64,000 bases of DNA from NCBI GenBank assembly GCA_026994195.1, contig JALWRH010000041.1:1-64000 (forward strand). The letters are read 5' to 3'. The notes beneath the pieces are model-generated. The model made no database searches and was not told where the DNA came from. It saw nothing but the letters and a program-made list of their open reading frames with translations. This DNA is from Sedimenticola sp. (GTDB taxonomy: Bacteria > Pseudomonadota > Gammaproteobacteria > Chromatiales > Chromatiaceae). A program made the translations under genes and the position numbers. Below, piece by piece: positions 30,369-43,440 of this stretch (the first letter of the stretch is position 1; each line of letters starts with the position of its first letter).

Positions 30369-30445
30369 ACAGGATGTAGAAAAAGTCCCTCCCTGGACTT
30401 TTCAACTTTGAAAGAAGCGGAAAACGTGGGTTCCCGCTTCCTTCA
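30369..30445. repeat. Dispersed two-hairpin repeat, copy 1
   Basis: It starts ACAGGATGTAGAAAAAGTCC, includes hairpin AAAAGTCC/GGACTTTT, and ends with GAAGCGGAAAACG...CCCGCTTC. A second copy lies at 42603-42685 (ACAGGATTTTGAAAAACTCC ... GAAGCAGAAAACG...CGGCTTC); the last 27 bp match at 23 positions. It sits directly downstream of fadL. Confidence 0.7.
30378..30402 (-). terminator. Probable terminator of fadL, within dispersed repeat copy 1
   Basis: On the minus strand an 8-bp perfect stem (AAAAGTCC, 6-nt loop, GGACTTTT) runs into a T-rich tail. A second stem (30414-30440, about 10 bp with one G-T pair) lies between it and the fadL stop. Confidence 0.6.
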
Positions 30446-30450
30446 GGCCT

Positions 30451-31842
30451 CTAGAACTTGTAATTCAGCTGGGCGCTGAAGATGTTCACGTCGGAATCAT
30501 ATACGCCGACGGCCTGGTGCCCAGTGCTGTGATCCAGGGCGTTCAGGTCGGTATCATCGATGAATAGATGGGAATAACCCATGTCGAAGCCCAGCTTGTC
30601 GGACATCTGATAACCCAGACCGACAGCTACCCAGGTGCGGTCGTTGCCGGGGATGCGCGGCGTACGATAACTGGTCTTGCTGATGGGGGTTTCGTCATAA
30701 GCCCAGCCAGCGCGGAACACCCATTTGCTGTTGGGGCGGTAAGTGGCGCCCAGGGAGTAGCGCATGTTGTTGTCCCAGTTTTCCGGTTGCACGGTATCGG
30801 GTTGCGCAGGGTTTTCATATTTTATGACCAGCTCGTCGAAGCGGCTCCAACGGGTCCAGGTGGCATCGGCGAGGATGGCCCACTGGTCATTAAACGCGTG
30901 GTACAGGCTGAGCGATGCGGATTCGGGCAGATCCACGTCAGCCGTGGCGTTGGTGTCGCTGAACAGGGGAATGCCCATGTTCAGGATGGCCTGGAAGCCG
31001 CTGGGTACGCGGAAGTCTGCAGAGCCTTCCAGGTTTTGCTTGACATGGGAGCGATAGGCAAGACCCACACGGGTATGGTCGGTTATGTGGATCAATGCGC
31101 CAATGTTGAAACCGAAGCCCCAGTCGGAACCCTTGACCTTGGCATAGCCATCAGATCCCGTGGGCACCATTCCGGCTGCCGCACAGCTGCCAGTTGGGAT
31201 CTGTGGGATCTGGGCTTCGAGACCATAGCAAATGGTGCCGAAATCGACGTTATTGGAAAGGGTGGCGTCGATATACTGCGCGCTGATACCGCCGCCCAGG
31301 GAAACCCTGTCATTAATCTTGTAGGCAATGCTGGGATTGATGTTGATGGTGCGGATCTCGGAGCGTACAGCATGGTAGCGCCCAACCCAGTCCTTGTCAT
31401 ACTGGGTGGCCAGGCCAAAGGGCGCGTTTACACCCACGCCGGCGAACAGCTGATCGCTGAGCTGGGTGGAGAAGTAGAAGTTGGGAACCAGTGCGGTTTC
31501 ACCACCGTCATCATCAGAACCTGACAATGTGCCGGCGATGGGAGTGCCGCCGGTCAAAGCCGGATTGATGTAAGAGCCGCGATTGCTGAAATCCGCGCTT
31601 GGAACGATGACGTGTGCCGCCAGTACTGCCTGGGTGCCTTCCAGTTCGGTCATGCCGGCCGGATTGAAAAAGATGGTGGATGCATCTTCAGCAACAGCAG
31701 AGGCGCCGGCAAAGGCATTACCCATGCCGCTGGCGCTGTTCTCGATGATGGCGAACCCGGCAGAATGAGCGCTGAAGGATGAAGCGGCAACCAGGCCACC
31801 GATCAGCAGGCCCAGAGGCTTGCGAATGGTTGTCTTGATCAT
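30451..31842 (-). CDS. FadL/OmpP1/TodX-family outer-membrane transporter
   Basis: 463 residues with a signal peptide ending 'SSFSAHSA', then the hallmark mature start 'GFAIIENSASGMGNAFAG' and 'STIFFNPAGMTEL'. The rest alternates like a 14-strand beta-barrel and ends in the outer-membrane phenylalanine (SAQLNYKF). Family role: uptake of hydrophobic substrates such as long-chain fatty acids or aromatics across the outer membrane. Two cysteines (TICYGLEAQ..TGSCAAAG) may form a loop disulfide. Monocistronic with a long 5' leader. Confidence 0.93.
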   Translation of the reverse strand: MIKTTIRKPLGLLIGGLVAASSFSAHSAGFAIIENSASGMGNAFAGASAVAEDASTIFFNPAGMTELEGTQAVLAAHVIVPSADFSNRGSYINPALTGGTPIAGTLSGSDDDGGETALVPNFYFSTQLSDQLFAGVGVNAPFGLATQYDKDWVGRYHAVRSEIRTININPSIAYKINDRVSLGGGISAQYIDATLSNNVDFGTICYGLEAQIPQIPTGSCAAAGMVPTGSDGYAKVKGSDWGFGFNIGALIHITDHTRVGLAYRSHVKQNLEGSADFRVPSGFQAILNMGIPLFSDTNATADVDLPESASLSLYHAFNDQWAILADATWTRWSRFDELVIKYENPAQPDTVQPENWDNNMRYSLGATYRPNSKWVFRAGWAYDETPISKTSYRTPRIPGNDRTWVAVGLGYQMSDKLGFDMGYSHLFIDDTDLNALDHSTGHQAVGVYDSDVNIFSAQLNYKF

Positions 31843-40764: not shown

Positions 40765-41334
40765 AGCCTATGAAGCGTTCGGATAGCACATATGCCCTAA
40801 GGATACCGGCCTGGGAAATCGTCCACAACTTTCAGTGCGTGCATCTCTGGGCATTGATAACACTTTTTGTTGATATGCCTCCCTATAAATGGGGGCGACG
40901 GGGGTATGTCAGGCTAGATGCTGCTTCCCGGGTGTGGGCATCCACTTGCCAATGATCTATGTGAGGATAGTGCTGTGGAGAATGAACGGGAAATACATTA
41001 AACGCACAAGGAAATATGTTACCGGCAGCAGCGAAGGTGTGGCACACTATGAATAAAATTAGTAGAAAAAAGGCCGGCACACGCCGCCTGGTTCTGTAGG
41101 TAGGCCCATAAAGTGCTGTTGACACATAATTCTCTTTATGTGACGGAATGGAGTTATCTTAAAGGAGATTGTTCCACATCCACCTTTCATGCTGAGTATT
41201 TTATCTAGATATCCAAAATGATAAATACAAAGAAGATTTGATGACTATTATAGTATTCATAAGTTCTATGTAATATTAGACTTGTCAGGGGCATGTTTAT
41301 TCAGGTGTCCTATTGCTATCAGGAGAAGTTTAAA
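40765..41334. other. Intergenic region between norE and the AT-rich islet
   Basis: No convincing gene; an 80-codon minus-strand frame at 40883-41125 has no ribosome site or family likeness. GC falls sharply after about 41.1 kb, marking the left edge of the AT-rich islet. TTGAT half sites near 40853 and 40870 are not a palindromic FNR box. Confidence 0.7.
41321..41325 (+). promoter_or_regulatory. Shine-Dalgarno for a TTG-started lipoprotein gene
   Basis: AGGAG lies 9 bp before TTG 41335. Starting there yields a clean lipoprotein signal peptide; starting at ATG 41293 places 14 unsuited residues in front of it. Confidence 0.65.
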
Positions 41335-41973
41335 TTGAATAGGGAATTGATTAGCGCTTTGGTTTTATTTTTGCTTGTCTTGTCTGGATGTGCATCAAAT
41401 AATATAGAAAAAGATTATTCTTTAGAAAAGCATCCAAACGATGGTCTAATTGTGGTGTCAGTAACTAAAGATGGTGGTCCAGGATCATTAGGATATGACG
41501 TAAATTACTATATTAGTGATGCCAATGGTGATCCATTTGCTCATCTTATTGCATTTGGTTCCACCGAGCCATGGACAAAAGAAGGAGGTCTGACGATAAG
41601 AGGAGCTTTGACTGTGCTGTCGGCTCCAGAGGGGACGTATAAGTTGTCTGATTGGAGAATAGTCGGGGCGAATGTAATTATATATCCAAAGTATAACCCT
41701 GATCCAATAGAGTTTGTTGTAAAGAAAGGGGAGATAACTTACATTGGAAATATTCATATGCATATGATAACGGGAAAAAATATATTTGGTATATATATAA
41801 CAGGAGGAGGTGTTCCGTATATATATGATATGTATGATAGGGATATAAGGTTATTTGTTGATAAATATCCTCAGTTTTTTAGTATGCCTGTACTAAGAAG
41901 AGTTCTTAAGCAGGGAATTTGGGCAAGAAGCCATGAAAGCACAATGCAGCTCAATCAAGTTCCAGTAAAATAG
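41335..41973 (+). CDS. AT-rich lipoprotein of unknown function, first of two
   Basis: 212 residues from TTG 41335. Lipoprotein signal MNRELISALVLFLLVLSGC, with Cys19 as lipid site. The mature part is beta-rich; 'APEGTYKLSDWRIVGANV' followed by 'VVKKGEITYIGNI' resembles DUF2846-type beta-sandwich lipoproteins that display a 'PxGxYxLxxW' turn, but this is a weak likeness. A later 'DMYDRDIRLFVDKYPQF' segment is typical of that group too. Codon use is markedly AT-rich compared with neighbours, suggesting horizontal acquisition. Confidence 0.78.
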   Translation: MNRELISALVLFLLVLSGCASNNIEKDYSLEKHPNDGLIVVSVTKDGGPGSLGYDVNYYISDANGDPFAHLIAFGSTEPWTKEGGLTIRGALTVLSAPEGTYKLSDWRIVGANVIIYPKYNPDPIEFVVKKGEITYIGNIHMHMITGKNIFGIYITGGGVPYIYDMYDRDIRLFVDKYPQFFSMPVLRRVLKQGIWARSHESTMQLNQVPVK

Positions 41974-42064
41974 GTGGTTCTCTGCTATTAAATATTAAGT
42001 ATCAGTGTGAGTAATATTAACAAGTGAATGATATGGCGAAAACATAGATTTGGATGGCGGCTAT

Positions 42065-42508
42065 ATGGTTTTACTGAATAAATTGAGTAGACTGGTTGTA
42101 TTTTTATCGCTGGTGTTGGTTGGCTGTGCGTCTAATGTATATGAATATGACCCGAATGAAAAAGTGGAATTGGGAATTATTGTTAGCAAGGAATCACCTA
42201 AATACAAGGAGTTGGAGCGCATGAGGGAGGGTATAGAAAATGCCTCCCTGGCAAATGCGATTAGCATGTATGGGGTAGTAGGTGTGGTGGCTCATAAGGC
42301 TGGTATTGGTTTGCCGACGGACGTCAATGATTTTCAAACACCATTTACCAGCTATACTGTAGTCACGTCTTCAAAAAAGAAATATCTTGTTAAGGACAGG
42401 TATTCAGGGTTCAATATCAATGATTGTGTAAAGGTATTCATCAGTGAAGATAGTACAAAGTATCCTCTACGGATTGCGCGGGGGTTTGGTTGTGCTGATT
42501 CTCAATAG
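42065..42508 (+). CDS. AT-rich lipoprotein of unknown function, second of two
   Basis: 147 residues from ATG 42065 (a TTG at 42050 is in frame). Signal MVLLNKLSRLVVFLSLVLVGC with a lipobox LVGC. The mature part reads 'VELGIIVSKESPKYKELERM', a Gly/Val-rich middle (MYGVVGVVAHKAGIGL) and a C-terminal beta region with two cysteines (INDCVKVF, GFGCADS) that could form a disulfide. Same low GC as the first lipoprotein, 91 bp downstream of it. No family recognised. Confidence 0.75.
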   Translation: MVLLNKLSRLVVFLSLVLVGCASNVYEYDPNEKVELGIIVSKESPKYKELERMREGIENASLANAISMYGVVGVVAHKAGIGLPTDVNDFQTPFTSYTVVTSSKKKYLVKDRYSGFNINDCVKVFISEDSTKYPLRIARGFGCADSQ

Positions 42509-43440
42509 AACCAGTTGATAGAAGATGTAATAGAGGGTCTCCGCTCGTGATAAAGAATGATAGAAGACAGCATCAATTGATTGAACCAATTGGCGTCTCC
42601 TGACAGGATTTTGAAAAACTCCTTGCGTGGGCTTTTTCCGCCACGGAAGCAGAAAACGCGGTTTCCGGCTTCTCCTGTTTTCAACGACTTACAGCCATTA
42701 AAAAGGCTGGCACATCCTTGTGCCACACACAGGCTGTTCAAGAACGGTATTCTTCAAAAGCTTGCTGCTAGGAAAAGCCAAAGTTTCTACACCAATAGAG
42801 ACGAAAGCAGCCTGATCTGCATTGTTTCCACGCCGCGACGGGGTCTTTCCTGTTATCCAGCATGGATATCGCCCACACACGGCCAGAAATCGTTCTACCG
42901 ATGTTGGCAAAAAGGGTGAAATTCAGAATGGAAATGGGAAGGGGCTGCCCCTGGCAGGGATTGTATTGACCCGGGGAGAAATATCGCCGGCAGTTCCAAT
43001 GCCCTGAACCCAGTGCTCTGCCCGGGCTTCGACCACCGCTTCCACCTTATCCAGTTGTCCCACCAGAGAGAGAAATAGTTTCTCGAAAGATTGGCTTAGT
43101 TCCTGCCAGGCTCGCATTACCAAACCGAGGCGTTGCAAAATGGGTAAGTGAGCGGCATCGATCTGTGTTCTGCCGATTGCTGGGAGGGACGTCGCTGGGT
43201 GGATGGTCTCCCTCTACTATGTACAATGTCGCTCCGGCGGGGTTGGTGGGTGCGATTGTCACGGAACAGGGAGTTATTCATTCGCCAGACGCAAAAAAGC
43301 CCCATTAGCACATGATGTGAATCCCCCTGAGGGCCGCATTCGCGTTTTGCGAGGATTTTCCCTGTGACCCGCACCCCGGAGGTGGAATTATGGTAAAATT
43401 CGGCCCTTAATTGTTTTAGCCACTCAGGCCGTTTAAACAC
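42509..43440. other. 930-bp intergenic stretch upstream of gyrA
   Basis: Short frames on both strands (e.g. 42581-42919 plus, 42923-43138 minus) lack ribosome sites and likeness to known proteins. Composition returns from AT-rich to genome-average near 42.6 kb. It holds dispersed-repeat copy 2 (42603-42685) and, near the end, the gyrA leader with TAAAAT at 43394-43399 as a possible -10. I read it as decayed or non-coding sequence. Confidence 0.65.
42603..42685. repeat. Dispersed two-hairpin repeat, copy 2
   Basis: It starts ACAGGATTTTGAAAAACTCC and ends GAAGCAGAAAACG...GGCTTC, closely matching 30369-30445. It sits immediately after the AT-rich lipoprotein islet and may mark its right edge. 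Confidence 0.68.

Follow-up and report, generated by a model that had tools for sequence, protein, structure and literature searches.

A short mobile element with a conserved five-hairpin core in Sedimenticola and distant bacteria, and its likeness to RsmW-type RNA

A dispersed repeat that occurs twice in a 64,000-nucleotide stretch of Sedimenticola sp. DNA (contig JALWRH010000041.1; the whole stretch is termed the window below) belongs to a short mobile element whose structured core is conserved far beyond the genus. That the element is mobile we regard as secure, and because of its numerous copies, their 4-bp target duplications and the existence of an IS5-family insertion sequence (IS) with matching ends we identify it as a MITE. 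IS5-family transposases, presumably acting in trans, are almost certainly what moves it, duplicating four base pairs of target, mostly YTAR, as they do so. The non-coding element is 161 bp long and bounded by terminal inverted repeats beginning CAGGnTGTTGAAAAA, and its interior is a separate five-hairpin module and no deleted IS; this module has been joined to at least three sets of transposon ends, two having IS5-type partners and one marked by 5-bp duplications. The full explanation, wherein a MITE carries a selected hairpin module that specifies an RsmW-type RNA on its minus strand, is in our judgement probable as a whole. Neither the conservation of the core so far beyond the genus nor its likeness to CsrA-binding RNAs was within reach of the first-pass annotation of the window, whose proposal of a MITE-like mobile element is otherwise upheld.

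Two copies of the repeat in the window

Both copies lie where they had been placed from the sequence alone, and the start and the G/C-T-C-C hairpin that they were said to share are real, as is a common 27-bp end, identical at 23 of 27 positions (GAAGCAGAAAACGCGGTTTCCGGCTTC and GAAGCGGAAAACGTGGGTTCCCGCTTC) and found at these two places only when the window was scanned with up to six substitutions allowed. The extents first given were another matter: the interval 42603-42685 ends half-way through an element that occupies 42604-42764 (copy A; a longer query showed the repeat continuing to about 42766), and the second copy, at 30370-30443 (copy B), comprises the first half of the element only. The likeness of the two copies is far beyond chance, because the segment 42595-42695 has seven further matches in the own genome at E <= 1.2e-8, and the alternative of a resemblance no better than chance fails accordingly. 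Genome-wide searches with both copies as queries returned many copies, the segment 30340-30460 recovering many of the same places. At up to two mismatches, the end motif CAGGMTGTTGAAAAA occurs 60 + 49 times in this genome, as against 2 + 3 for the reversed pattern.

When copies from the own genome (3.0 Mb in 126 contigs) are aligned, the element emerges as a unit of 161 bp with CAGG at its start and CCTG at its end. It has terminal inverted repeats (CAGGATGTTGAAAAA and CAGGCTGTTGAAAAA) and folds in consensus into five consecutive hairpins, H1 to H5. A covariance model built from eight of these copies (R1) gave 66 matches in the genome at E <= 1, several being reverse-strand echoes or remnants, and 18 matches at 66 bits or more. 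By their ends, these 18 strong copies divide into ten of CAGG type (one without its left end) and eight that are GAGG-like (two degenerate); TCC is kept in the loop of H4 in 17 and of H1 in 15. Like other MITEs, the element is short, multicopy and without a transposase of its own. Solitary-looking single-hairpin palindromes with CAGGnTGTTGAAAAA-like ends, on contigs C5, C60 and C86 of this genome, are possibly minimal mobile units. At L029/L133 (contig C98) the element gives way, within H5, to a different, REP-like palindrome, GTCGGGCTGAAGCCCGAC.

The neighbourhoods are also as first described. Copy B adjoins a fadL-type gene (PF03349) that ends at 30451, and copy A borders an AT-rich islet where, between about 41.0 and 42.5 kb, GC is 0.36-0.40, the whole window having 0.56. 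The features are as follows.

30370-30443, plus strand: copy B, an H1-H2 remnant (R1, 39.5 bits), preceded by CTAA plus one extra A
30451-31842, minus strand: fadL-type gene (PF03349, 380.8 bits), its stop codon within CTAG at 30451-30454 beside copy B
42600-42603, plus strand: left target-site remnant CTGA, identical at 3 of 4 positions to CTGC at 42765-42768
42604-42764, plus strand: copy A, full-length but decayed, CAGG end type (135 bits over positions 1-161 of R1, a model with copy A among its eight rows)
42610-42641, plus strand: H1 of copy A, its conserved loop TCC lost (TTGCGT)
42645-42673, plus strand: H2 of copy A, from alignment and model structure
42676-42706, plus strand: H3 of copy A, partly decayed, from alignment and model structure
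42707-42726, plus strand: H4 of copy A, loop CATCCTTG at 42713-42720, which is CAAGGATG when read from the minus strand, with the GGA hairpin preserved
42730-42764, plus strand: H5 of copy A, with the right terminal inverted repeat
42765-42768, plus strand: right target-site remnant CTGC

The own-genome copies align over the same span as copy A (42604-42764). The H1 loop of copy B is CAGGGAGG on the minus strand, the strand that the fadL transcript would read. A second, separate dispersed repeat follows directly after copy A (window 42768-43108) and has relatives of 73-78% identity on own-genome contigs C119, C97 and C40. Within the AT-rich islet (window 41000-42500), the ORFs 41293-41973 and 42050-42508 are without a Pfam match and, by eye, have the look of small lipoproteins.

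Copies in related genomes and target-site duplications

R1 found matches in 27 of 55 genomes (the own genome included), among them all 15 of the genus, with from 1 to at least 53 copies per genus genome. The latter figure comes from the complete genome of a genus mate, Thiolapillus brandeum, 53 candidates having been scored per genome. Forty T. brandeum copies were compared, namely the best-scoring 41 of the 53 less one, at 913919, that lies inside the stretch of another: their interiors are nearly identical, and their outsides differ except in one flank-sharing pair. In this pair (L176 and L191) the left flank is common and the right flank different, which suggests that DNA has been rearranged or duplicated where the element lies.

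The target duplications to be expected of a transposable element were found, being 4 bp long and mostly YTAR. In T. brandeum an exact 4-bp duplication flanks 21 of the 40 copies (mean 5.55 and maximum 12 under shuffled pairing of flanks), flanks identical over 3 bp and over 5 bp occurring in two and one of the 40, respectively; the left site is YTAR in 27. Of 25 copies with CAGG ends outside this genome and that of the window, 12 have exact 4-bp duplications (shuffled mean 2.66, maximum 9). Exact 4-bp duplications also flank 15 of 18 copies of a GGAA end type (3.37 and 11), and exact 5-bp duplications accompany 12 of 17 copies of GAGG type (0.71 and 5). Each of these four counts exceeds all of 2000 shuffled pairings. 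Among nine CAGG copies of the own genome, two of which (C37a and C98) share their left flank, the 4 bp on either side agree in five (mean 1.68 and maximum 5 under shuffling). An exact 4-bp duplication is lacking in 19 of the 40 T. brandeum copies and 13 of the 25 other CAGG copies.

Distribution beyond the genus and types of ends

A scan of GTDB genomes with the left end and H1 produced at least 107 stretches, and the 80 of these that were listed include records titled Nitrospirae, Nitrospiria, Deltaproteobacteria and Desulfarculus, MAGs among them. Several of these distant stretches are full elements with wholly different stems; identical 4-bp flanks were present at 9 of 14 distant loci checked, including L225, L241, L250 and L258 under Nitrospir- titles and L244 and L279 under Deltaproteobacteria. 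A further model, R2, was tried on 30 loci and recognises 29 at E <= 1e-8, though some of these partially. At that threshold, and with 8 candidates scored per genome, a sample of 369 gammaproteobacterial genomes yielded the element in 74.

Typing of ends, for which 60 further copies were drawn from the best-scoring matches of the 369-genome scan, distinguishes three kinds: CAGG...CCTG and GGAA...TTCC, both with 4-bp duplications, and GAGG...CCTC, with 5-bp duplications and no visible target preference. The occurrence of the same core with three end types argues that one hairpin core has been combined with different transposon ends. Spread on plasmids or phages was considered and rejected, one T. 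brandeum copy having given no blastn match in either the plasmid or the phage collection. One genome (G052) contains a four-hairpin unit in tandem (L343, 1492-1910; period 124, 3.4 copies, 97% matches), and overlapping model matches suggest that H5 of one unit there doubles as H1 of the next.

Partner insertion sequences

A cognate transposase, which the first-pass annotation had envisaged, exists in the genus mate, on an IS with nearly the same ends, and not in the genome of the window, where there were no matches to that transposase and none to DDE_Tnp_1. The T. brandeum IS is 1303 bp long (L199 and L200, with a third, incomplete copy at L205), matches the ends of the element at 14 of 15 and 13 of 15 positions, and is flanked on both sides by TTAA or TTAG. 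Its transposase of 361 aa, which has DUF772 and DDE_Tnp_1 domains, belongs to the IS5 family (NF033581, 272 bits against a cut-off of 140); that this protein occupies the same coordinates on a plasmid record of T. brandeum is what identifies the genome. Since the own genome is without this partner, its copies are either stranded or were moved by an IS since lost. Among 31 entries of other element-rich genomes searched, which count two genomes twice (G353/G065 and G173/G071), the T. brandeum type of transposase was not found in 30, and one gave a partial match.

DDE_Tnp_1 transposases in 10 of 15 genome entries (G353 and G065, one genome, both being included) led to partners for the GGAA type. 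One is an IS5-family IS of 1158 bp in the one-contig genome G175, where four of its five copies have an identical YTAR on both sides; its ends match those of the G175 element at 11 of 15 and 13 of 15 positions, and ISs with similar ends occur also in G353, G131, G042 and G062. The transposases of the two partner ISs are 22% identical. At L468 and L480 in G175 a GGAA-type element adjoins its presumed partner IS, with one 4-bp site, CTAA, between them. The search yielded no partner IS for the GAGG type. Derivation of the core from a partner by internal deletion was rejected in both cases, the score of the core against the interior of the T. brandeum IS being 18 (shuffled mean 19.4, maximum 25) and that against the interior of the G175 IS being 20 (shuffled mean 19.3, maximum 33).

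Conservation of base pairing

In an alignment of 62 matches from 60 loci, 94.5% of the cells in paired columns are standard pairs, and 59 of 62 pairs have changed on both sides. Such two-sided changes occupy 796 cells, compared with 206.6 in shuffles and 83-120 when the partner column is slid by one to three positions; an earlier set of 46 matches gave 57 of 62 pairs and 445 cells, both alignments having been fitted to the model, which favours structure. We argue that the effect is nevertheless real, because of the slid control and of the sequences as read out. A five-hairpin core that is structured, and under strong selection for base pairing, can thus be taken as secure.

Conserved GGA loops and likeness to RsmW

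While the stems of this array have drifted, GGA has stayed in two of its loops. Taking one match per locus (60 loci from at most 58 genomes, the stretches of G353 and G065, and those of G173 and G071, being identical), minus-strand folds show a loop GGA (the closing pair counted with the loop) in 58 of 60 for H1 and 57 of 60 for H4, as against 0/60, 0/59 and 1/60 for H2, H3 and H5; GGA is thus exposed in paired hairpin loops, as in RsmW and other CsrA-binding sRNAs. Of the 60 loci, 56 retain the longer minus-strand motif ANGGA in H4, and 36 retain it in H1. Plus-strand folds give the mirror image, with TCC in the loop of H1 in 59, H4 in 57, H2 in none and H5 in one of the 60, and in H3 in none of 58; a C-NTCCNT-G hexaloop is formed by H4 in 54 and H1 in 37, and 21 of the 60 have a five-base H1 loop. 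The binding motif of CsrA is described as a short hairpin holding GGA, usually paired with another (PMC4383904).

The Rfam model of RsmW, in full length, matches the minus strand of an own-genome copy (L140; 43.4 bits, E = 4.5e-4) and of L410 (38.0 bits, E = 1e-4). These were the two full-length matches among 27 element loci at permissive settings, both short of the gathering cut-off of 52, and because this curated cut-off is unreached we keep the element out of the RsmW class. Matches to RsmV, also on the minus strand and close to H4, do not rise above noise (E 0.36-0.69; in the window, 42709-42751, E = 0.36). No Rfam family matched in the window at gathering cut-offs, and for the elements of 20 loci two matches only were returned, both parts of a glycine riboswitch in L122; membership of a known Rfam family is rejected on this basis.

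The RsmW consensus (with three hidden positions set to N) folds into four hairpins of 8, 11, 9 and 16 pairs. The first and last have the loops CCAGGACG and CAGGGACG, which contain GGA, and in order and place the four correspond to H4', H3', H2' and H1' on the minus strand of the element. The G052 tandem period of 124 equals the length of the RsmW model. For RsmW itself, which lies downstream of PA4570, the published description gives a Kd of 11.5 nM for RsmA, proposes an origin in the 3' UTR of that gene, and reports an increase in glycogen (PMC4950607).

Could the likeness to RsmW be convergence, any hairpin array with two purine-rich loops scoring some Rsm bits? That reading is quite possible, if somewhat less likely than not to our minds: the scores lie below the curated cut-off and come from 2 of 27 loci, and the stems have little sequence in common. 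Yet the match spans the entire 124-nt model, the four hairpins agree in order and approximate size, GGA occupies the corresponding two loops, and the four-hairpin repeat of G052 recurs at exactly 124. A reading in terms of CsrA/RsmA explains best why two GGA loops are kept in a drifting array and why RsmW matches. Judged from sequence, it is about an even call that the module does what would be its likeliest job, as an RsmW-type RNA of the minus strand with GGA loops in H4' and H1' that would bind a CsrA/RsmA dimer, and this strand does look as if it worked like RsmW. Of 23 genomes that bear the element and were tested, 22 encode CsrA; the protein is common in these bacterial classes, and its presence is weak support.

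A match to the Rfam gyrA RNA motif at L367 (177-264; 39.5 bits against a cut-off of 45, E = 1.9e-8) lies on the minus strand of an element and covers H2' and H1', so that this motif, too, may have been domesticated from the element. As something less likely than not, we suggest a transposable family extending across phyla that would carry a selected antisense CsrA/RsmA-binding module, passed between transposases; chromosomal Rsm sRNAs, RsmW for one, and possibly the Pseudomonas gyrA RNA motif would be domesticated copies of this module.

Gene context and alternative roles of the hairpins

Genes in T. brandeum were called with a home-made hexamer score instead of a standard gene finder. By these predictions 39 of the 40 copies fall outside genes; a stop codon is no more than 13 bp away from 15 of the 40, and a start codon is as close as that to 2 of the 40. 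The proximity to stops would fit insertion at targets overlapping a TAA or TAG stop, with the duplication regenerating the site, and copy B, beside fadL, is an insertion of the same kind. Relative to the element, the flanking genes are oriented ++ in 14 cases, +- in 12, -- in 8 and -+ in 5. The tandem contexts (14 plus against 8 minus) thus reveal no excess on the GGA strand. This argues against simple regulation in cis, and a strand-biased regulator acting in cis is unsupported. In neither window copy was a promoter-like site found. Each has one terminator-like site on the minus strand, that of copy A at H4' (shuffled mean 0.4, near chance) and that of copy B, on the strand of fadL, whose putative terminator it would be, at H2' (shuffled mean 0.0).

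Such sites, together with arms of H1 and H5 that by eye are A-rich and T-rich, and with the preference for positions outside genes and near stops over starts, invite a simpler account, in which the hairpins act as bidirectional terminators or mRNA 3' ends only, insertion beside stops is harmless, and the GGA loops have no protein partner. This we hold to be unlikely, though well short of negligible: a single hairpin would suffice for termination, whereas five are kept by covariation, and TCC/GGA in two loops is left unexplained while the other three loops drift. Under the RsmW-type reading, insertion between genes, often beside stops, would provide the transcript of the neighbour with a CsrA-binding, terminator-like 3' end; alternatively, a copy might release a small decoy RNA. 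Transcription, binding by CsrA and a benefit to the element are what we infer here.

That the hairpins are instead needed on DNA, as cruciforms or lagging-strand hairpins recognised in transposition, is improbable. H1 and H5 do contain or adjoin the terminal inverted repeats of what is a mobile element, but the same core occurs with three end types, and the T. brandeum and G175 enzymes do not need it for their own ISs, because these share the ends without a match to the core. Least credible by far is the other half of the original proposal, a REP/REPIN-like element mobilised by a RAYT transposase: palindromic, intergenic and multicopy though the element is, with L029/L133 running into a different REP-like palindrome, its 161-bp unit of five hairpins, its exact 4- or 5-bp target duplications and its IS5 partners with similar ends all disfavour that origin.

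Significance and comparison with known systems

If our reading is true, regulatory RNAs of the kind that soaks up CsrA may be spread, or even born, by transposition. The element would then be a source for many unrelated-looking Csr/Rsm decoy RNAs, transposed ready folded to the 3' ends of genes, and where a genome has dozens of copies these could tax its CsrA pool unnoticed. CsrA aside, a covarying MITE core with three sets of ends shows that a "parasitic" non-coding element can have its cargo under selection, something that to our knowledge has rarely been seen in bacteria. Among the titles and abstract openings listed from the open-access literature, none described this element or a MITE carrying CsrA sites.

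REP/REPIN sequences are not known to leave a target duplication, and they are palindromes of 20-40 bp, as generally described, compared with 161 bp here. We know of no Correia/NEMIS, ERIC, RUP or REP family with five covarying hairpins or paired CsrA-type loops. What these families have in common with the element is that they are intergenic, mobile, structured repeats that can enter transcripts (as outlined in PMC10969869, with details partly from general knowledge). The "multicopy nucleotide sequences" of Geobacter are similar in being partly palindromic intergenic repeat families of Deltaproteobacteria; they are not presented as MITEs in the text descriptions compared, and they may overlap with the element (PMC2700814, PMC2996986).

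RsmW (RF02809), the RsmA-binding sRNA of Pseudomonas aeruginosa, resembles the minus strand of the element in its four hairpins in the same order and the GGA in its first and last loops, and its reported origin from a gene 3' UTR (PMC4950607) may be set beside the T. brandeum copies next to predicted stops (15/40). It is described, however, as one sRNA of one locus, whereas the element is mobile and multicopy, has a fifth hairpin and transposon ends, and scores below the cut-off. Closest in their manner of movement are the IS5-family MITEs of prokaryotes, which are likewise short and non-coding, with inverted terminal repeats, 4-bp duplications and the ends of a partner IS. The present family differs from them in its core, a module of five hairpins that is conserved, has no relation to the IS, is combined with several types of ends and is distributed across phyla.
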